Origin: Cordylochernes scorpioides
Lineage: Eukaryota; Arthropoda; Arachnida; Pseudoscorpiones; Chernetidae
Length of the DNA stretch: 64,000 nt
Reading direction: 5' to 3'
Assembly (NCBI GenBank): GCA_030710605.1
Contig: CP092869.1
Span: 8,157,854 to 8,221,853, forward strand
Shown one piece after another: positions 1,237 through 46,660 of this stretch; position 1 is the stretch's first letter; the number at the start of each line of letters is the position of its first letter. The notes under the pieces were generated by a model that saw only the letters and a list, made by a program, of their open reading frames with translations, was not told the origin of the DNA and searched no databases. The position numbers and the translations under genes are program-made.

Positions 1237-1270
1237 ATAAAGAGCATCGACCCGATGCTCAGAAGGAGAC

Positions 1271-2509
1271 TTACATCCTCAGTCTCAAGGCTCGAGAACG
1301 GGTGATAGGGCCTGAGATCTCTACGCGGGTCTGTGGTTGTTGTGTTCGTTCAGTGGGGATGTCTTCTTCCTGGAAGTTTGTCGAGTCATCTTCTGGGTCC
1401 TCTTCTAGGTGGTCCTCCTGGTCCTCTGGGTTTAAATATGGTTTCATCCTACAAATGTGAACTAAATCTTTTGTTTTACGACGACCTTGCTGGTTTCCGA
1501 ATGTTTCAACTTCATAGGTCACATCAGATATTTTTCGGGTTACTTTGTATGGGCCGAAGTAACGTCTCATTAGTTTCTCCGAATATCCCACTTTACGCAC
1601 AGGGATAAAGATCCATACAAGATCTCCAGGCTGATAAATTATATTTCTGTGATGGGCGTCATAGCGTTGTTTATTGCTATCTTGAGATCTCATGGAGTGG
1701 ATACGTGCCAGTTTTCGTGCTTCTTCGGCTCTTGCCCCTAGAGTTTGGATGAAATCGTCGTCTTCTGGCAATAACTTGGGGAATAACACGTCCAGTGGAG
1801 TCTCGGCTTCACGCCCGTGTACAAGGAAAAATGGGGTGAACCCAGTTGACTCTTGTTTTGCTGTGTTGTATGCAAATGTAACGAATGGAAGAATCCTGTC
1901 CCAATCTTTCTGGTTGACATCTACATACATGGACAGCATGTCTGCTATGGTCTTATTCAACCTCTCCGTGAGGCCGTTTGTCTGGGGGTGATAGGCGGTC
2001 GTCTTCCGATGGGTTATTCTGCACTGGTTGTTCAGATCACTTATCATTGAAGATGTGAAGTTCCTTCCTCTATCCGTGATTAATTCCCTCGGCGCGCCGT
2101 GCTTTAAGATGACATCTTCAATGAAGAATTTGGCAACTTCCATGGATTCACTTGTGGGTAGGGCTTTAGTTATCGCATATTTCGTTAGGTAGTCCGTACA
2201 TACAATAATCCAACGGTTGCCACCTTCTGATGTTGGAAATCTCCCCAGGAGATCCATTCCTACCTTTTCAAAAGCAACTTCAGGAACAGGTATTGGCTGT
2301 AAGTGCCCTGAGGGGAGTTGGGGCTGATGTTTACGCCTCTGACAATCTGAACAGTGTGCCACATACTTTCTAACCGTTCTATACATTCCGGGCCAGTAAT
2401 ACTTTTTTCTTATTCGGTCATAGGTTTTAGTAAATCCGAGGTGACCAGCAGTGGGTGAATCATGGAAATTTTTCAGTAATTCCTGCCTTAAATGGCGTGG
2501 AACCACCAA
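1271..2509 (-). CDS. Gypsy pol, integrase part, behind an in-frame stop
   Basis: This is the integrase part of pol; it would insert the cDNA into the genome. The N-terminal HHCC zinc motif is visible (H in FHDSPTAGH, then HCSDCQRRK). The catalytic DDE core follows, with D in GMDLLG, D in TDRGRNF and E in TERLNKT. A C-terminal segment with GDLVWIF and YFGPYKVTRK is the usual post-core DNA-binding region. About 400 residues is normal for a gypsy integrase. It is in the same frame as the upstream RT/RNase H reading frame and separated only by a TGA at 2513-2515, so it was once one polyprotein. No natural ATG starts it; without readthrough it would not be made. Confidence 0.9.
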   Translation of the reverse strand: MVVPRHLRQELLKNFHDSPTAGHLGFTKTYDRIRKKYYWPGMYRTVRKYVAHCSDCQRRKHQPQLPSGHLQPIPVPEVAFEKVGMDLLGRFPTSEGGNRWIIVCTDYLTKYAITKALPTSESMEVAKFFIEDVILKHGAPRELITDRGRNFTSSMISDLNNQCRITHRKTTAYHPQTNGLTERLNKTIADMLSMYVDVNQKDWDRILPFVTFAYNTAKQESTGFTPFFLVHGREAETPLDVLFPKLLPEDDDFIQTLGARAEEARKLARIHSMRSQDSNKQRYDAHHRNIIYQPGDLVWIFIPVRKVGYSEKLMRRYFGPYKVTRKISDVTYEVETFGNQQGRRKTKDLVHICRMKPYLNPEDQEDHLEEDPEDDSTNFQEEDIPTERTQQPQTRVEISGPITRSRALRLRM

Positions 2510-2512
2510 AAG

Positions 2513-4771
2513 TCATGGTTTCCCCATTGGATCATAATTTTTTCTGTAGAGCGTGTTATCGATTTTTACAAAGGTATTATTAGGAGTACTTTGTAATTGG
2601 TCAGCAATTTTTCTAAGAGCTTGATCATTCATCTGCTCTTCGCTAAAGTTCTGCAAAGTCACTATGCTTGGAATATCTTCCTCCATATCTTCACTGTATT
2701 CTAATGGACTTCTTGATAAGCAGTCTGCGTCCTGATGTTTCCTTCCGCTCTTATACACGACAGTGACGTCAAACTCTTGCAGCCGAAGTGCCCATCTTGC
2801 TAACCTCCCACATGGGTCTTTGAGGTTGGTCAGCCAGCACAAAGAGTGGTGGTCTGTAACAATAGTGAACGGCTGTCCAAAGACATATGGTCGGAATTTA
2901 TTGATAGCCCAAATGATGGCAAGGCATTCCCTTTCTGTGGTTGAATAATTTTTTTCTGCCTTATTTAAGGTTCTGGATGCATAAGCAATGGCTCTTTCCT
3001 TTCCCTTTTGTATCTGCACTAATACTGCTCCTATTCCGTAGTTGCTTGCGTCAGTGTGTATTTCGGTTGGGGATGAGTAATCAAAATGTCCAAGAGCGGG
3101 TTCGGAAATTAACGCTGACTTGAGAGCTTCAAATGCATTTTGCTCTTCCTGGTTCCAATTAAATGCTGAGTCTTTCTTCAAAAGGTCATTCAAGGGTTGG
3201 GCTACGTGGGCATAATTGGGTATGAAGCGGCGGTAGTAGGATGAAAGGCCAAGAAAACTTCTAACTTCCTTCAATGACCTTGGCGTAGCGAAGTCGCGGA
3301 CTGCTCGAATCTTTTCTTGGTCGGGACGAATTCCATTTTCACTCACCTCATGTCCAAGAACCGTGATAGTTTTTGCACCAAACTTGCATTTCTTGGAATT
3401 GAGACATAATCCGGCTTTCTTAAGGCAATTTAATACAAGTTGAAGGCGTCTTAGATGTTCTTCAAAGCCATCTGAAAAAACGATGATGTCATCGAGGTAA
3501 CACAAGCAAATAGTCCACTTAAGACCCTTCAGAAGATTATCGATCATTCGTTCGAAGGTAGCTGGAGCATTACATAACCCAAATGGCATTACTTTGAACT
3601 CGTACAGTCCATCTGGAGTTATAAATGCTGTCTTCTCACGGTCCGATTCTTCTACGTCGATTTGCCAGTACCCTGATTGGAGGTCCATGGAAGAATAAAA
3701 TCTAGCTCCCCGTAAGCAGTCTAAAGTGTCGTCGATCCTTGGGAGAGGGTAGACATCCTTTTTTGTTATTTTGTTAAGGCGGCGGTAATCGACGCAGAAT
3801 CTCCAGCTTCCATCCTTTTTTCTTATCAATACTACAGGTGAGGCCCACGGACTTTCAGAGGGCTGAATGATGTCAAGTTTTTCCATCTTGTTTACCTCAT
3901 CCTGAATAATTTGGCGTTCTCTTGGTGCAACTCGGTAAGGTCTTTGTTTGGTCGGTAGGTGGTCTCCAGTGTTAATTCGGTGTTTAACATTGACGTCCTT
4001 GAATTGTTTTCTTTTATTAAATTCGAAAATATCTGTATAGTTTTTTAACAAATTTCTTAATTTTTCTTTTTGAGATTCATCAAGCGAATCATCTATAAAA
4101 AATTCCGAGGTTTTTGGGTCTTCAGAATGTTCCGCCTCTGTTTCAACTTGGTTACAATCGGCTAGAGTACATAATTGACTATCTTCGATGACAGCACTAT
4201 CGGCTACATGCATCCCCTGTGGGATTAGTTTCGGATATGGACTCCAATTCGCCACCCAAAGTTTACCTCGGTTATTGGTAAGTGAAATGACAGAGGAGGG
4301 ATCCGTTAGTTCTCTTTCCAGCAATAGCTCTTTTCGACATTCTGCCACCACAATTGCGTCATTAGGAATGTCATGACTTGCTACTTCTATTAACTGAATA
4401 GAGGCGGGTTCGATTCTATATTCCAATTCCGAGTAGAGAGGTGAGCTGTTCTTAGGGGTATCCTCAAAAAGACATTTTTCTAAGAAGAGTGTGTCGTCAG
4501 CTGAATCAATTATCGCCCTAGATAACTTCAAAAAGTCCCAACCAAGAATAACTTCGTGACTACAGTCTTCCATAACGACAAATTCAAAGCTTTCCTGTAG
4601 TCCATTCAAGTCCAGTTTCAGTGTGCAGCGTCCTTTTGGTCTTACAATTTTACCGTTGGCTACTCGTAATGTGACGTCAGTTTCGGCAAACATTATTTTT
4701 TTTAGTTTGAGTCTGAACCTCTCAGAAATGACAGAATATGAGGCTCCTGAGTCGACGAGGGCACGCGTCAT
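2513..4771 (-). CDS. Gypsy pol: protease, reverse transcriptase, RNase H
   Basis: This is the first part of pol, acting in the cytoplasmic particle to process the polyprotein and copy RNA to DNA. The aspartic protease motif DSGAS is about 7 residues from the first Met. The RT palm has FCVDYRRLN, MPFGLCNAPATF and the catalytic YLDD at 3488-3499 (about residue 425). RNase H follows with TDASNYGIGAVL, RECLAI and TDHHSL, then the linker to integrase. The frame is open upstream of 4771 into the 3' end of gag, in the -1 frame relative to gag, so pol is probably made by -1 frameshifting and the Met at 4771 need not be used. It ends at a single TGA (2513-2515) where related proteins usually read on into integrase, so this copy is interrupted by a nonsense change. 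Confidence 0.93.
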   Translation of the reverse strand: MTRALVDSGASYSVISERFRLKLKKIMFAETDVTLRVANGKIVRPKGRCTLKLDLNGLQESFEFVVMEDCSHEVILGWDFLKLSRAIIDSADDTLFLEKCLFEDTPKNSSPLYSELEYRIEPASIQLIEVASHDIPNDAIVVAECRKELLLERELTDPSSVISLTNNRGKLWVANWSPYPKLIPQGMHVADSAVIEDSQLCTLADCNQVETEAEHSEDPKTSEFFIDDSLDESQKEKLRNLLKNYTDIFEFNKRKQFKDVNVKHRINTGDHLPTKQRPYRVAPRERQIIQDEVNKMEKLDIIQPSESPWASPVVLIRKKDGSWRFCVDYRRLNKITKKDVYPLPRIDDTLDCLRGARFYSSMDLQSGYWQIDVEESDREKTAFITPDGLYEFKVMPFGLCNAPATFERMIDNLLKGLKWTICLCYLDDIIVFSDGFEEHLRRLQLVLNCLKKAGLCLNSKKCKFGAKTITVLGHEVSENGIRPDQEKIRAVRDFATPRSLKEVRSFLGLSSYYRRFIPNYAHVAQPLNDLLKKDSAFNWNQEEQNAFEALKSALISEPALGHFDYSSPTEIHTDASNYGIGAVLVQIQKGKERAIAYASRTLNKAEKNYSTTERECLAIIWAINKFRPYVFGQPFTIVTDHHSLCWLTNLKDPCGRLARWALRLQEFDVTVVYKSGRKHQDADCLSRSPLEYSEDMEEDIPSIVTLQNFSEEQMNDQALRKIADQLQSTPNNTFVKIDNTLYRKNYDPMGKP

Positions 4772-6133: not shown

Positions 6134-6376
6134 TGTAGCGTAGAAATCAAGCCTTGAAATATCCTAAGATGTAAAAGTATTTATTGATGACGTCACGGCG
6201 ACAAGTCGGCAATTATTAAAAAGTCAGCAAAAAACTATTTACAGCTAGAGAATCTTGAGCAAGCAAGCAAAGAGATATTTTGATAATTATTTTACATAAA
6301 ATATTAATATATATTTATATAATCTGTTGAATAGTTTCATTGAATAATTTAATTAATAAATTATTTCTTCGTCACA
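6134..6376 (-). repeat. 5' LTR of the gypsy element
   Basis: This 243-bp TG...CA repeat matches 982-1224. It should contain the promoter. The right target duplication ATAT follows at 6377-6380. Confidence 0.93.
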
Positions 6377-6599
6377 ATATTAATCATTTTTATTATTTTC
6401 TCTCAATTAAAATTTAAATATATAATCAATTTATCAATTTATTCAACTTATTATCACTTTTAATCATTAATTATCATTTTTTTACCCATTAGTTTATATT
6501 ATCATAGTTTCAAATCAACGAAAACTCATTGGTTTTCTTTTTTAAAATTGGATATTATATTTTACTTTGATTTACAAAAACATTCTTTTTTTTCTATTT

Positions 6600-7250
6600 T
6601 TTTTTTCACCATGCAACCAAGCATTCACTTTGATTTCTTCCAACTTTTTATTTTACTTTGATTTCTTCAAAACACCTTATGAAATTTCCTCGTTTTCTTT
6701 TCCCAAAATTCGAGCAAAAATTAGTTAGGCATTTTTCCTTTTTCTCACCATGCAACCAAGCATTCACTTTGATTTCTTCCAACCTTTTATTTTTATTTTT
6801 TGATTTCTCAAAAGACCTAATAAAAATCCCTCGATTTCCATTCCCAATTTCGAGCAAGAATATGGTTAGGCATTTTTCCTTTTTTTTTCTCACCATGCAT
6901 CAAGCATTCACTTTGATTTCTTCCAACTTTTAATTTTTATTTTTTGATTTCTCAAAAGACCTAATAAAAATCCCTCGATTTCCATTCCCAATTTCGAGCA
7001 AGAATATGGTTAGGCATTTTTCCTTTTTTTTTCACCATGCATCAAGCATTCACTTTGATTTCTTCCAACTTTTTATTTTTATTTTTATATTATTTTTGAT
7101 TTCTCAAAAGCCCTAATAGAACTCCCTCGATTTTTTTTCCAATTTCGAGTAGAAATTAGTTAGGCGCATTTTCTTTTCTTTTTAATCCACTATGTACCAT
7201 AGCATTCATTTTGATTTCTTACAATTAAAAAATTTTTGATTTCTATTAAT
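6600..7250. repeat. Tandem array, unit about 140 bp, five copies
   Basis: Units begin with CACCATGCA(A/T) and AAGCATTCACTTTG at about 6609, 6748, 6893, 7034 and 7187, giving spacings of 139, 145, 141 and 153. Units contain long T-runs and a CGAGCAA(A/G)AA block. Copies 2-4 are the most alike; outer copies are diverged. No coding potential. The flanks 6381-6600 and 7250-7420 are plain AT-rich DNA. Confidence 0.85.
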
Positions 7251-7429
7251 TATACTCAACCTATATCATCAACACCTTTCTATATATTACTTCTTATATC
7301 ACCACCAATGCTTGTATATAACCTCTCAATACCCACAACTAATTTTCCCACAAAATTATTTTTTACTTTACAGAATTCTCTCAGGCTAACCCCTTCTTGA
7401 ATTCTTCACATGTAGGGGGCGCATCTGTC

Positions 7430-8276
7430 ATAATTTGTATATAATTGTATGCACCCCCGACCCACTATGCATGTACAATGTATGATTTTCAAAGATTTAA
7501 TAAAGAATAAGGTAACTGGAGGAAAGAAAGTAGCAACAAGACATAGGAAGCAGGCTAAAAGCGGGCACAAGTATTAATAACTTGTACAGTCAATACTTCC
7601 TGACAAGAGGCCGGACGTATCTTGTGACCGCAAAAGTTATAAAAGTAGAGAGACGCCCAATATTTCCGGACAGGACCGGACGTATTTGATAACCGCGGAA
7701 GTAATAAGAGTCGAGCACACCCAATACTTCCTGACAAGATCGGCGGTATCTTCCACCAAAGAAAGCCGCAGAACCAATTAGAAAGTCTCCCCTAAATAGG
7801 TCAACCAATAGAAAAACGGGCACGTTCCATCCTTCGACCAATGGGAAAGAAGACGACTCGTGGTGTAAAATCGAGAAGCAAGAATAGTCAGTAACGTTTT
7901 CGCTCTCATAGGAACAACACCTAGAGTAGTGACTTGGCTCCCACCGAGTTCAGATCAGTAGTGATTTGGCTCCCAAGGAGGTGACATCGGCTCTGGACCT
8001 CTCTCCCTCTGCTCATCCCGTAGCTAAGTACAATCACCACCATGTGATCAGATAATTAACAATCAAAATCGCTCCGCTCTTCTCAAGCTTTCTTTCCTCC
8101 AATCCAGTTGCCTTTTATTTTCAAACCCCATCACGTGTCCTGATTATTCCTAACTGTATGCTTCACTTGCCACTCAACGACTGCGTTTCAACCAATCCTC
8201 ACCATTCAAATCGAACAACAAGAAATTCCGCAACGATATTGTCACAGAACGGTTAAGTCGACAGGATTCTACAACA
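7430..8276 (+). mobile_element. Solo-LTR-like repeat, family D, copy 1
   Basis: It shares most of its length with 51986-52874, where a 4-bp duplication defines an 889-bp TG...CA unit. Here it begins TGTCATAATTTG and ends near CGACAGGATTCTACAACA. It contains repeated short blocks (TACTTCCTGACA, GACCGGACGTAT) and a late pyrimidine/CCA-rich part. No internal retroelement coding follows, so it is read as a solo LTR. I could not confirm a target duplication for this copy. Confidence 0.6.
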
Positions 8277-8319
8277 GTGTAATACATCAAATATTGCAGT
8301 GTAATAACTTTGGATATAT

Positions 8320-8354
<35 letters not shown>

Positions 8355-8663
8355 TTAGAGAGAGGGGGGCACCTCTCCCTTCAATTATGCATCAGGACGA
8401 TAAATTATGTTCATAACCCGAGTGATAAACTTTACTAATAATGATAAAAAATATGGCACAACACCAATTTGGAAAATGTGTTTAAATTTGTGAAAAAAAC
8501 GATATTGTTAAAAATAATTATAATGATTAAATCATAAATATAGTTATGAAAAAATAGGATAAATAGAAGGCTTGAGCGTTTCAGTGAAAAAATAGACAAT
8601 TCGTTTGAAATGTTGAAATTTTGTTTAAAATATTTCAACAAGATTATTATTTTTTAAATTATC
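8277..8663. repeat. AT microsatellite and unannotated AT-rich DNA
   Basis: A (TA)n run occupies about 8323-8353, followed by GAGAGAGGGGGG. The rest to 8663 shows no gene or recurrent repeat. Confidence 0.6.
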
Positions 8664-8768
8664 CCTAGTACACGTGGTACAGGTCATGATAATCATGGTG
8701 GTTAGAAGTTGGTAATTGCTTTTACTGTAAGTACACCACATATCTACACATGTGAAAAGTAGATTTTT
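8664..8768 (-). mobile_element. SINE-A fragment (3' part only)
   Basis: It carries the 3' body of SINE-A (CCCTAGTACACGTGGTAC through the CACATGTG palindrome) on the minus strand and stops before the tRNA-like head. A fuller copy follows immediately at 8790. Confidence 0.8.
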
Positions 8769-11764: not shown

Positions 11765-12230
11765 ATCATATCATATCCGTGCTCACATGAGCATTTCTTG
11801 ATGGCAGAGCGCCATCTAGTGGAACAAAAATAAACTAAACGTTTATTTAACTTGTTCCGTGATATTTGGCTAATCTAATTTTTAATAAATCAAGAAAAGC
11901 CATCCACGAACGCGTTTCGGGCTGTTGGCCCTCGTCAGTGTGGTGTAATGTACATCAACGACCAAAATTTGGTCCTATAGACTTCCTGAGAAACCAAGAA
12001 ATGGGTATTTAAGGCCGAACTTGCGTAAATACGCTTAAGACATGAAAAAATAATAGAAAAAAGGCTTCAACAGCGTGAAACGCTTGATTTATCGAGAAAT
12101 TGGTTTGGACAAATATCAGGGAAAAGGCTAAATCAATGTTTAGTTGATTTCTGTTCCACTAGATGGCGCTCTGCCATCTGAAAAGTACATGTGCTCCTGA
12201 TCAAGATATGTCGTTTTATTTTTAATATCA
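11765..12230. mobile_element. Foldback element FB-1 with hammerhead centre
   Basis: The left arm (AGCGCCATCTAGTGGAAC, then AAACTAAACGTTTATTTAAC) is matched in reverse near 12110-12190 (CTAAATCAATGTTTAGTTG, GTTCCACTAGATGGCGCT). The interior holds a hammerhead-like core at 11904-11943 and the block ACGACCAAAATTTGGTC. Related copies are at 23832, 28143, 29874 and 31574. No coding capacity. Confidence 0.8.
11904..11943 (-). ncRNA. Hammerhead ribozyme motif in FB-1
   Basis: On the minus strand: CTGACGA, stem II GGGC / loop CAACA / GCCC, then GAAA, then a palindromic ACGCGT giving a GUU cleavage triplet. Stem I pairs CCACA with CGTGG except for one C-A at the base. All core bases are present. The short palindromic stem III would favour dimeric action. 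The A-C mismatch could be CpG decay. Confidence 0.7.
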
Positions 12231-20455: not shown

Positions 20456-21071
20456 AGGGGTCGGTGGAAGGAGGGTCTAAACCGTTGGTTTTCGACCGCT
20501 ACGACCCGGGTTCGATTCCCGCTTTGGACTTTTTTTTTTTCCGATTAAAAAAAAAATCAAAATTTATTTTTAAGGAGAAATAATGACTATTTTAACCTTA
20601 GGGATGAGGTATGAAAGGATGAATTGTGAAGAGTAATGATAAACGGAAAAATAAAAGTGTCCAGGGATGGGAATCGAACCCACAGTGTTCCGCTTACCGG
20701 GCAGATGCCATGTCCACTAGGCTACCCTGGAGGTTAGAAATAATCGTTATTTATTCTTTAAAATAAATTTCGATTTTTCTTTTAAAATAAACACATGCGG
20801 GATAATTTTCAAATGTCGTTTTACAATCATAAACCCGCATTATATTGTATCATTAAAAAATGCTCCAATGGCCCCCGATTCTTTAAAAGGTTCAACCCCA
20901 CCAGCGAGTGCAAGTAACCAAACGGGGTTCTGTCACATTTGTAAGTGTAAAGTCGAACTGCTTTTCACATGTGTAGATATGTGGCGTACTTACAGTAAAA
21001 GCAGTCGCCTACTTCTACCCACCATGTTTATCATGGCCTGTACCACGTATACTAGGGATAGGCAAAAAAAA
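20456..21071 (+). mobile_element. SINE-A, split by a SINE-B foldback
   Basis: The head is at 20456-20545 (GGGGTCGGTGGAAGG to GGACTTTTTT) and the body at 20855-21071 (AATGCTCCAATGGCCCCCG to CTAGGGATAGGC). Between them sits a SINE-B/foldback unit. The element therefore pre-dates that insertion. Confidence 0.88.
20546..20854. mobile_element. SINE-B inside a foldback unit
   Basis: A minus-strand tRNA-like segment (CCAGGGTAGCC... to ...ATCCCTGGACAC in reverse) lies at 20655-20732. It is flanked by inverted copies of the TAACGATTATTTC / GAAATAATCGTTA arm and by the ATGCGG terminal block. The same family occurs at 40670, 43334, 46403, 47199 and 61836. Confidence 0.8.
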
Positions 21072-23831: not shown

Positions 23832-24100
23832 AATATGCATATCCTGACTGCGCTCATATTAGCATTTTAAATAGTAGAGCGTCATCTAGTGGAACAGAAA
23901 TCAACTAAACGTTGATTTAACCTGTTCACTGATATTTGGCCATTAATTTTCTTGATAAATCAAGAAAACCAACCTCGAACGCGTTTCGGGCTGTTGGCCC
24001 TCGTCAATGTGGTGCAGACTGTACCTCAACGACCAAAATTTGGTCTTAGAGGCTTCCTGAGAAATCAAGAAATGGGTATTTGAGACCAAATTTGAATAAA
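23832..24100. mobile_element. Foldback FB-1, left part only
   Basis: It has GCATATCCTGACTGCGCTCA, the GTCATCTAGTGGAACAG arm, the AAATCAAGAAAACCAACCTC block, a decayed hammerhead (23970-24014) and the GACCAAAATTTGGTC block. No right arm. Confidence 0.78.
23970..24014 (-). ncRNA. Decayed hammerhead motif
   Basis: The minus strand reads TTGACGA (C3 changed to T), stem II GGGC / CAACA / GCCC, GAAA, ACGCGT with GUU triplet. Stem I is poorly paired. Probably inactive. Confidence 0.5.
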
Positions 24101-27597: not shown

Positions 27598-27912
27598 AAA
27601 AAGGCATCTCCTTATCGTGCAACTGAAAGTTGCTGATGGCTTGCGCCATATATCGGAATAAATATCAACTATTCTCGTTGATTTTTAATTATTCCATAAT
27701 TGGCCAAATACCCATTCTTGATTAATCAAGAAAAGCTAACCACGGACGTGTTTCGGGCTGTTGGCCCTCATCAGCGTGGTGCAAGCTGTACCTCAACGAC
27801 CAAAAAATTGGTCATTAAGGCATCCTGAAAAATCATGAAACTGGTAGTTAAAGCCAGAATTGCGTGAGACCGCTACACAACTTTCAGTTGCACGATAAGG
27901 AGATGCCTTTTT
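27598..27912. mobile_element. Foldback FB-2, copy 2, with intact-looking hammerhead
   Basis: Terminal arms AAGGCATCTCCTTATCGTGC plus AACTGAAAGTTG are inverted at CAACTTTCAGTTGCACGATA through AGGAGATGCC. The interior holds the hammerhead (27734-27787). Length is 315 bp and there is no coding frame. Confidence 0.88.
27734..27787 (-). ncRNA. Hammerhead ribozyme, all core bases conserved
   Basis: On the minus strand: AGCT, TGCA, CCACG (stem I 5' side), CTGATGA, GGGC / CAACA / GCCC (stem II, 4 bp), GAAA, then C-AC-G as a 1-2 bp stem III, the GUC triplet, CGTGG (stem I 3' side, 5 bp), TT and AGCT (distal stem I helix, 4 bp). The predicted cleavage is after the C opposite 27745. The internal loop in stem I facing a 5-nt loop II is the usual place for the tertiary contact. 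Self-cleaving RNA of Penelope-like/retrozyme type; activity is inferred, not shown. Confidence 0.82.
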
Positions 27913-29873: not shown

Positions 29874-30190
29874 AAGGCATATCCTGAACAAAAGCACTTG
29901 TGATTTTTAGATGGCAGAGAGCCATCTAGTGGAGCAAAAATAAACTAAACGTTTATTTAACTTTCTCCGTGATATTTGGCTAAACCAATTTCTTAATAAA
30001 TCAAGAAAAGCCATCCACGAACGTGTTTTGCGCTGTTGGCGCTCGTCAGCGTGAAGTAGGCTGAACCACTGCGACCAAAATTCTTTTTGGTCCCAGAGGC
30101 TTCTTGAGAAACCAAGAAATAGGTATTTAAGGCCACTCTTGCGTAAATACGCTTAACACATTAGAAAACAATAGAAAAAAATAAGGCATA
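29874..30190. mobile_element. Foldback FB-1, left part with altered hammerhead
   Basis: GGCATATCCTGAACAAAAGC, the AGCCATCTAGTGGAGC arm, a hammerhead-like centre and the GACCAAAATTC...TTTTTGGTC block. The right arm is missing. Confidence 0.75.
30012..30056 (-). ncRNA. Hammerhead-like motif with compensated stem II
   Basis: The minus strand reads CTGACGA, stem II GCGC / CAACA / GCGC, then AAAA instead of GAAA, palindromic ACACGT-like stem III with GUU, and stem I CACG/CGTG. Relative to the GGGC/GCCC of other copies, both strands of stem II changed together and pairing is kept. The G12 change should inactivate it. Confidence 0.6.
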
Positions 30191-42595: not shown

Positions 42596-42667
42596 TATAT
42601 AAATAAATGAGATAAAATAAGGGTAAATATAAATATATATGGAAATTTTGCCGGGAGGAAATTGATC

Positions 42668-43080
42668 TAAAGAGACAAGGGTCGTCTCTCCCGTCAAAAT
42701 AGACGTCTAAAACCAGACGCCATCTATTGACCGTCGCCGCAACTAGCGGCCTCGGGTCGGTGACAAAGCCACAAAACCAGCTTTGGCAAACATATTTTAG
42801 CCATAGATTTGGCCCAGCCACTTTGCCAGTTAAACACCTCTTTGGCAGATTGTCAAGATTCTATTAGATCCCGTGTGGATCTCATGGAATAAAGTCCGCC
42901 CTAGACTGACGAGGGCCATTAGCCCGAAACCATGGTCTCTAGGTGGACGCTTTTCAGTTTGCCAAAGCTGGTGTTGTGGCTTTGTCACCGACCTGAGGCC
43001 GCTAGTTTCGGCGACGGTCAATAGATGGCGTCTGGTTTTAGACATCTATTTTGACGGGAGAGGCGACCCTTGTCTCTTTA
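42668..43080. mobile_element. Foldback FB-9 with intact-looking hammerhead
   Basis: Arms of about 123 bp: TAAAGAGACAAGGGTCG, TCTCCCGTCAAAATAGA, GACGCCATCTATTGACCGTC, GCCGC-AACTAGCGGCCTCGG and GACAAAGCCACA are repeated in reverse from 42958 to 43080. The 170-bp loop region carries the ribozyme at 42894-42948. A left-arm-only copy is at 17852. Total 413 bp with no coding frame. Confidence 0.9.
42894..42948 (+). ncRNA. Hammerhead ribozyme, best copy
   Basis: Order: GTCC (distal stem I), GC loop, CCTAGA (stem I), CTGACGA at 42906-42912, stem II GGGC 42913-42916 / CATTA / GCCC 42922-42925, GAAA 42926-42929, stem III ACC/GGT with an AT loop (together the palindrome ACCATGGT), GTC at 42935-42937, TCTAGG (six pairs with CCTAGA), T, GGAC (four pairs with GTCC). 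Every invariant core position is present and all three helices form. Predicted cleavage is between 42937 and 42938. The role would be processing of an element transcript into a unit-length or circular RNA; that is inference. Confidence 0.87.
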
Positions 43081-43104
43081 TATATATATATATATTATAT
43101 AGAG

Positions 43105-43310
43105 CAATCCATAAATAAATCTTTAATTAAAAAGGCATATATTGGATCAAAATATCATTTATTTTACCAATAGTTCAGTTGGCTGAACGCCAACCTTTAT
43201 CAAGGTGTTATAACATATTTAATGTGTGTCAACAATGTTGTTGTTACTAATGTTGATGACAGACATTAAATGATATAAATGATATTTTGATCCAATATAT
43301 GCCTTTTTAA
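43105..43310. mobile_element. Foldback FB-3, complete
   Basis: AAAAAGGCATATATTGGATC and AAAATATCATTTATT are inverted at AATGATATTTTGATCCAATATATGCC. The centre has GTTGGCTGAACGCCAACC and TTTATCAAGG. Confidence 0.82.
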
Positions 43311-43333
43311 TTAAAATATATATATTTATACAT

Positions 43334-43592
43334 ATATAGGCTACCCTAGTGTACATGGCATCTACCCGGTAAACGGAACACTGTGGGTTCGATTCCCATC
43401 CCTGAACACTTTTATTTTTCCATTCATCATTACTCTTCACAATTCATTCTTTCATATTTCATCCCTTAGGATAGAAATAATCGTTATTTCTTCTTAAAAT
43501 AAATTACGATTTTTCGTTTAAAATAAACATTTGCAGTAAAATTGTCAAACGTCGTTTTACAATCATTAGCCGCATTATATTGTGTTATAGGA
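43334..43592 (+). mobile_element. SINE-B, plus strand
   Basis: tRNA-like head (TAGTGTACATGGCATCTACC to GGTTCGATTCCCATCCCTG), then the TTTTATTTTTCC body, the AAATAATCGTTATTTC arm and the GCCGCATTATATTGT terminus. Best compared with 46403. Confidence 0.85.
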
Positions 43593-45024: not shown

Positions 45025-45440
45025 AAGAAAAAGGAATCTTCTTATCTTACAAATGAGAGTTGCTGATGGCTTTTATCTTATCTCAGCTTTTAGTGGGAAG
45101 AATACTTTTTTCGTTTGTTAGTGAACAAATCTCTCCCGTCTTCTCATTGGACGAATGTGGCCATGTCTGTATATAAAAGGGGGGCTATGGTATTGCGAGA
45201 GAAAGTGTGGTAAATTATTTTGTGTAGACGCTTAAAGTGTTCTTCCCGGAATAAATATAAACTTTTCATTGATTTCTAATTATTCCAGAATTGGCCAAAT
45301 ACCTATTCTTGATTAATCAAGAAAAGCTAACCAAGTACGCGTTTCGGGCTGTTGGCCCTCGTCAGTGTAGTGCAAGCTGTACCTCAACGACCAAAAAACT
45401 GGTCATTCAGGCATCTTAATTTATGAACCATATCCCAGTA
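45025..45440. mobile_element. Foldback FB-2, copy 4, with internal promoter-like insert
   Basis: The arm start AAAAAGGAATCTTCTTATCTT, the hammerhead-bearing centre and the tail AACGACCAAAAAACTGGTCA are present. About 160 bp unrelated to other copies (45080-45240) separate the first arm from AATAAATATAAAC, including TATATAAAAGGGGGGC (about 45171), a TATA-like sequence. Confidence 0.65.
45325..45379 (-). ncRNA. Hammerhead motif, core intact, weak stem I
   Basis: The minus strand reads AGCTTGCACTACA, CTGACGA, GGGC / CAACA / GCCC, GAAA, palindromic ACGCGT with GUA, CTTGGTTAGCT. Core bases are all present and GUA is an allowed triplet, but stem I near the cleavage site pairs poorly. Confidence 0.6.
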
Positions 45441-46402: not shown

Positions 46403-46660
46403 GGATCCCAGGGTAGCCTAGTGGTTATGACATCTGCCCGGTAAGCGGAACACTGTGGGTTCGATTCTCATCCCTGGTTACTTTTATTTTTCCGTTTATC
46501 ATTACTCGTCACAATTCATTTTTTCATACCTCATCCCTAAATCTAGGAAATAATCGTTATTTCTCCTTGAAGATAAATTTTAATTTTTCATTCAAAAGAA
46601 ACACATGCGGTATAATTTTCAAATGTCGTTTTACAATCACAAGCCGCATTATATTATACT
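46403..46660 (+). mobile_element. SINE-B, clearest tRNA-like head
   Basis: CCAGGGTAGCCTAGTGGTTA (A-box-like), GTAAGCGGAACACTGTGGG, GGTTCGATTCTCATCCCTGG (B-box region), then the body, the AAATAATCGTTATTTC arm and the GCCGCATTATATTA terminus. The acceptor-like ends CCAGGG/CCCTGG pair. Presumably transcribed by polymerase III. Confidence 0.88.

Follow-up and report, generated by a model that had tools for sequence, protein, structure and literature searches.

Complementary insertion ends in a hammerhead retrozyme family of the pseudoscorpion Cordylochernes scorpioides point to mobilization by a Penelope-type enzyme

Penelope retrotransposons provide the closest described parallel to the insertions considered here. 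In the excerpted account of Frangieh et al. (2024; PMC11167929), the Penelope protein cuts and extends both strands of its target, with a preference for AT-rich DNA, and reverse transcription begins internally, at two neighbouring positions of the RNA whose intervening sequence constitutes an optional tail of 30-40 bp; within that excerpt, no difference in start site was seen between the top strand and the bottom one. Arkhipova et al. (2013; PMC3846280) describe, in the relevant portion of their text, Penelope copies with inverted pseudo-LTRs, one of which may bear a 31-bp tail, together with target duplications of 8-10 bp, and a tail at one end only is thus already known for Penelope itself. 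The retrozymes of animals are less settled in this respect. The pertinent sections of Cervera and de la Pena (2020; PMC7229834) leave their mobilizer open among LINEs, Penelope-like elements (PLEs) and others, with PLEs as a strong candidate, and a passage of PMC8969392 likewise holds that animal retrozymes may rely on PLEs.

The locus described here lies in a 64-kb window, the whole stretch of DNA that was analysed, from the genome of the pseudoscorpion Cordylochernes scorpioides. It is centred on the following feature, assigned by base inspection, motif scan, covariation and covariance model:

42894-42948, plus strand: hammerhead motif, with predicted cleavage between 42937 and 42938

The initial annotation placed a complete hammerhead ribozyme at this site on the plus strand, and all of the core bases and stems that it named were found in place. 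The outer part of stem I pairs GTCC (42894-42897) with GGAC (42945-42948), and the inner part pairs CCTAGA (42900-42905) with TCTAGG (42938-42943). The core CTGACGA (42906-42912) is followed by stem II, GGGC-CATTA-GCCC (42913-42925), then GAA, stem III, ACC-AT-GGT (42929-42936), and C 42937, such that the consensus core CUGANGA...GAAA...UH and three stems are present, with a stem III of just 3 bp. A strict motif scan of both strands of the window returned this single site. Relaxed matches numbered two in the real window, and 150 first-order Markov windows gave none by the strict and one by the relaxed pattern. The covariance-model check proposed at the outset had a different outcome, as no Rfam 15 model scored a hammerhead at 42894-42948, even with E values of up to 10, nor for the same family in 12 further loci. 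The minimum-energy fold of 66 nt retains stems I and II, loses stem III and pairs core bases instead. Accordingly, the hammerhead claim rests on sequence, copy number and covariation.

Copies of this family, here termed family A, bear on the first and last of these. The initial annotation supposed that a false assignment would vary freely at its core positions, which was not seen: 11 of the 559 core cells are changed, 3 of these changes falling at the free position 7, as against 136 of 3,526 and 189 of 5,555 flank cells, in a set of 43 rows picked by similarity. The compensatory stem changes that it sought among genomic copies were found, for example the stem I pair CCTGGA/TCCAGG in one family A copy. 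A second family in the same window, family B, offers a further set of variants, with five more hammerheads, all on the minus strand, that have a stem III of AC/GT (2 bp) and a stem II of GGGC or GCGC, the latter including compensated GCGC/GCGC in some copies. These were assigned from sequence and covariance model:

45330-45371, minus strand: family B hammerhead
30014-30055, minus strand: family B hammerhead
27739-27780, minus strand: family B hammerhead with every stem I pair intact
23972-24013, minus strand: family B hammerhead
11903-11944, minus strand: family B hammerhead inside an inverted-repeat copy

The rough map of family B comprises the inverted copy near 11.7-12.3 kb of the window and, in L062, a direct repeat with a length of roughly 346 nt. 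A covariance model built from family B alone scores the family A site at 25.5 bits (E 7e-5), and its single match outside both families reaches 12.4 bits (E 0.5); Rfam gives weak HH9 matches in 2 of 12 family B loci (E 0.05 and 3.7). When 7 A and 11 B variants are aligned, 95.4% of cells pair as the named structure requires and 33 cells are double-changed, neither value being matched in any of 500 shuffles, and slid versions of the structure pair in 13.6-37.4% of cells. Two of the five measures in this test are weak, namely pairs in which both partners change (6 against 4.2; 19 of 500 shuffles reach this) and pair types (11 against 10.7; 285 of 500), and the contrast is largely one of family A with family B. 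The 12 commonest A variants contribute 7 sequences to the alignment. Four more duplicate the first across the 44 aligned bases, and the remaining one, whose stem I is broken, was omitted, a choice that favours the structure; rarer A variants stand outside the alignment. All 11 distinct B sequences, collapsed from 14 matches, were used. Together, these data confirm 42894-42948 as a hammerhead motif with an intact core and pairing stems, from which self-cleavage is predicted.

The exact 32-base core of family A occurs 9,251 times in the genome with none in the controls, a bare count that lacks a matched control count and is no measure of constraint, and the terminal 24-mer has 19,095 matches with up to two mismatches, again with none in the controls. 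Copies map onto a monomer of about 320 nt, whose reference is the genomic copy L024, with position 1 directly following the expected cleavage site. Tandem multimers have terminal matches exactly 320 nt apart (e.g., C1:44009216, 44009536 and 44009856), and L039 spans about two units. The monomer has a folding energy of -119 kcal/mol (z -4.6), and 0 of 100 shuffles fold equally low. Retrozymes, in the sections of PMC7229834 that define them, carry a hammerhead in tandem repeats of about 150-450 bp, code for no protein, are expressed as circular RNA and have a GC content below 50% in the text or below 45% in a figure legend. Family A has a period of 320 nt, no open reading frame of at least 120 aa over 42631-43083 and, in L024, 48.75% GC. 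Penelope-like elements, by comparison, encode a reverse transcriptase (RT) and mostly a GIY-YIG endonuclease; family A encodes neither and is for this reason not classed among them. Phage records gave no match. The mobile unit is the tandem monomer of about 320 nt, an animal non-LTR retrozyme with a type I hammerhead, of which the foldback is an insertion product, and family A is a new family of a kind of retrozyme already known.

Within the window, the family is represented by a foldback insertion and by a truncated copy. In the list below, S and T denote the two sites at which outer ends fall (monomer 138-155 and 170-186, respectively; 32 nt apart). The outer edges of the insertion, delimited by mapping onto the monomer, are uncertain by several bases because both sit in AT repeats.

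about 42631-43083, plus strand: whole inserted family A element (foldback)
42631-42791, minus strand: inverted segment, monomer 180 down to 20, with its outer end at site T and a 32-nt tail
42792-43083, plus strand: direct segment, monomer 175 to 466 (=146), which crosses the hammerhead, with its outer end at site S and no tail
43049-43083, plus strand: start-site hairpin, 5' strand and loop up to site S, compared in geometry with the Penelope element L101
17833-17943, minus strand: truncated family A copy, arm only, from scan and sequence comparison

The inverted arms (42665-42791 and 42957-43083) are 127 nt each and 95% complementary, and the inserted element exceeds the span from arm to arm because the left arm has 32 nt more. 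Its left end is thus T (180) and its right end S (146), with a 6-bp target duplication, ATATAT, that is indistinguishable within the AT tract. The initial annotation assigned the short-stem-III hammerhead to a non-autonomous retroelement with affinities to retrozymes and Penelope-like elements, which stands, and took the 413-bp foldback to be that element, which does not: other copies are 320-nt tandems, simple truncated copies, or foldbacks with different inner junctions. Nothing was found to show that the hairpin RNA it envisaged, with the ribozyme in its loop, is a working form, and the inverted arms are best read as remains of the integration reaction rather than as the mobile unit.

A genome search for the foldback DNA gave 3,813 first-look candidates, 40 of which were scored. 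The first set of copies, the window with 39 others taken by BLAST score, had an inverted left part in 33 of 40. As ranking by BLAST is biased towards the form of the window's own copy, a second set was made up of the 40 clusters of terminal hits met first along contig 1, all within its first 33 Mb and limited to copies with the exact terminal 24-mer. It comprises 44 elements, 31 with both ends outward (head-to-head inverted) and 13 single-ended. Each of the 29 classifiable foldbacks among the 31 combines an S end with a T end (16 T/S and 13 S/T; Fisher 1.5e-8), the remaining two (L077 and L081) having no end class. The BLAST-ranked set contains 39 inverted elements among 50, of which 31 are complementary, two are S/S (L011 and L045), none is T/T and six are unclassified, so that the ends differ in 31 of 33 classifiable foldbacks. 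Flanking words of at least 8 bp, sought at lengths of up to 16, are shared across 24 of the 31 position-ordered foldbacks as compared with 164 of 930 mismatched pairs, and simple AT repeats are among these words. The flanks of these foldbacks are 79% AT, as against 66% at the locus ends. Both the inner junctions, which show microhomology, and the duplications, in their length, are variable. Two pairs of copies share an inner inverted junction at different insertion sites, L061 and L065 at 116/318 and L056 and L084 at 39/98-99, as would be produced either by junction hot spots or by re-mobilized foldback copies.

The inverted arm, the 30-40 bp tail that is optional at one end and the duplications that mark Penelope insertions are all found in family A. 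Long arms of 95% complementarity and duplicated AT-rich targets would also suit a DNA transposon of the MITE or Foldback type that had acquired a hammerhead and moves as inverted-repeat DNA. In such elements the termini are equal and every copy carries inverted repeats, a pattern that family A lacks: a 32-nt tail sets one outer end apart from the other in all 29 classified cases, the family includes 320-nt tandem copies as well as truncated single-ended ones (13 of 44), its inner junctions vary, and so does the length of its duplications. A DNA transposon is accordingly extremely improbable, and the foldback as a MITE was rejected on its unequal ends and the tandem copies.

The variable truncation and the microhomology at inner junctions would equally be expected if a LINE enzyme moved the retrozyme and the inversions arose by twin priming, as in L1, and R1-like and other reverse transcriptase ORFs do occur in the window. 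In twin priming, the inverted part is a 5' piece of the element. Both outer ends of family A instead derive from the same 3' region, starting within the monomer, and obey the tail rule known for Penelope, which makes a LINE enzyme very unlikely.

What was copied can be read from the 72 cDNA strands that start at S or T. Of these, 41 end ahead of the hammerhead junction and 27 continue beyond it, 13 of the 72 exceeding one 320-nt lap. Strands that pass the junction imply that the template was an uncut multimer or a religated circle and not a cleaved linear monomer. Strand ends at the cleavage site were considered as a trace of hammerhead use, and no pile-up was seen, with 4 of 72 stopping within 6 nt of the junction. 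S and T strands show no clear difference in length (medians 139 and 100; p 0.64). In the window's foldback, both strands copy monomer ~20-146, and the same stretch was therefore copied twice, from two RNA molecules or from one. Both the read-through and the scarcity of stops at the junction would fit a hammerhead that is a passenger in uncut tandem RNA, its cleavage having no role in mobility, as would the silence of Rfam, the energy fold and the finding, in the excerpt from PMC11167929, that Penelope RNAs with mutant hammerheads still insert in vitro. A religated circle, however, would be read through equally, and the core changes less than its flanks, the stems show compensatory changes and exact cores are abundant, if by a count without matched control. 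A passenger hammerhead is thus rather unlikely.

The same genome contains Penelope elements with which these ends can be compared. GIY-YIG matches were obtained in 146 of 150 sequences scored, out of 17,015 first-look candidates, and several form close minus-then-plus pairs. One of the elements, L101, encodes an RT with a C-terminal GIY-YIG and consists of two arms of 2,407 nt each, identical and placed head to head. One of its ends stops at TTTATATAA, the other extends 34 nt further, and both adjoin GATTCAGGTAAT as a 12-bp duplication, which is less certain than the tail because the flank is a repeat array containing the GATTCAGGTAAT word. The tail was found again at a second site, window 25530 on the minus strand. 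L101 and family A, a comparison with a single Penelope copy, are both head-to-head, tailed at one end and flanked by a duplication, and their start-site hairpins have similar spacing (21-S-10-stem-17-T in L101 and 23-S-7-stem-13-T in family A). Upstream in L101, CTGACGA...GAAACGTT resembles a small hammerhead and fails the strict scan, which returned nothing in L100-L102; the family B model likewise found nothing in 15 GIY-YIG loci. As a point against a Penelope mobilizer, BLAST revealed no autonomous Penelope sharing family A sequence among 12 GIY-YIG loci other than L100-L102, with matches of 11-12 nt only.

Further features of these loci and of the window are recorded here in their own right. 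Penelope-like copy ends with CTGACGA and a CTGGCCG hairpin strand lie at window 25530 (minus) and 44181 (plus), the former with the tail. L100 carries a head-to-head element (1248-3734, minus, and 6277-8764, plus) with an ORF in which GIY-YIG lies towards the N-terminal side, presumably resembling the permuted Penelope clade Naiad. A second foldback, with 41-nt arms of 100% complementarity, adjoins the family A element at window 43122-43315, and pieces related to it lie around 27.5 kb and 24.3 kb; we take its hairpin, TTGGCTGAACGCCAACC, to resemble a Penelope 3' end. L010:134-188 (plus) matches the Rfam twister-P1 model at 52.5 bits (E 4.5e-9), under the gathering score of 67.2. Sequences resembling tRNA-Thr(GGT) occur in dispersed repeats at window 20659-20731, 46407-46479 and 43338-43410, and perhaps represent a tRNA-derived SINE.

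The observations on family A are best explained, with good probability, by a hammerhead retrozyme that is moved in trans by Penelope machinery priming on both cut strands. Its RNA would be made as multimers, which the hammerhead would cut and perhaps recircularize. An RT/GIY-YIG enzyme of Penelope type, provided in trans, would cut both strands of an AT-rich target ~8-16 bp apart, and both cut ends would prime reverse transcription, one at S (monomer ~146) and the other at T (~178), sites that lie on either side of a single hairpin's 3' strand. Each cDNA would grow towards the RNA's 5' side to a varying extent, in many cases past the hammerhead junction, and the two would then be joined head to head. 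This would leave an insertion of inverted repeats in which one end alone is tailed, and of which the window's foldback would be an example. Beyond this, we incline slightly to the view that Penelope-type enzymes perform a coupled dual priming in which the two cut target strands are obliged to use different sites, S and T, on either side of one hairpin strand, so that every event would leave a tailed and a tail-less end, and that animal retrozymes parasitize exactly this reaction. An asymmetric enzyme dimer or an ordered priming would be the simplest ideas to account for the differing sites.

With the Penelope signature in nearly every classifiable copy, the suggested mobilization by PLEs becomes a testable statement, and family A insertions offer an extensive natural record of how both cDNA strands are started by an enzyme of this kind. 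Coupled dual priming, if true, would settle the mobilizer of animal retrozymes, by a rule that is testable on many thousands of natural insertions. At the level of titles and abstracts, chiefly of open-access literature, no report of such insertion ends in retrozymes was found. The main text of PMC7229834 on metazoan non-LTR retrozymes, in which "inverted" appears 0 times, leaves head-to-head insertions and a two-site tail unmentioned in the sections at hand; as compared with those published families, family A is new in sequence. The LTR retrozymes of plants (PMC4918200), as described in PMC7229834, are similarly non-autonomous and bear hammerheads, and differ in having LTRs, type III hammerheads and 4-bp duplications. 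With Penelope-like elements, as portrayed in the cited extracts, family A shares inverted pseudo-LTR-like arms, AT-rich targets, tandem copies and a hammerhead, along with a start-site hairpin, an optional tail of ~32 nt at one end and duplications of 8-16 bp. Unlike these elements, it codes for no RT or endonuclease, and could thus use such an enzyme only in trans.
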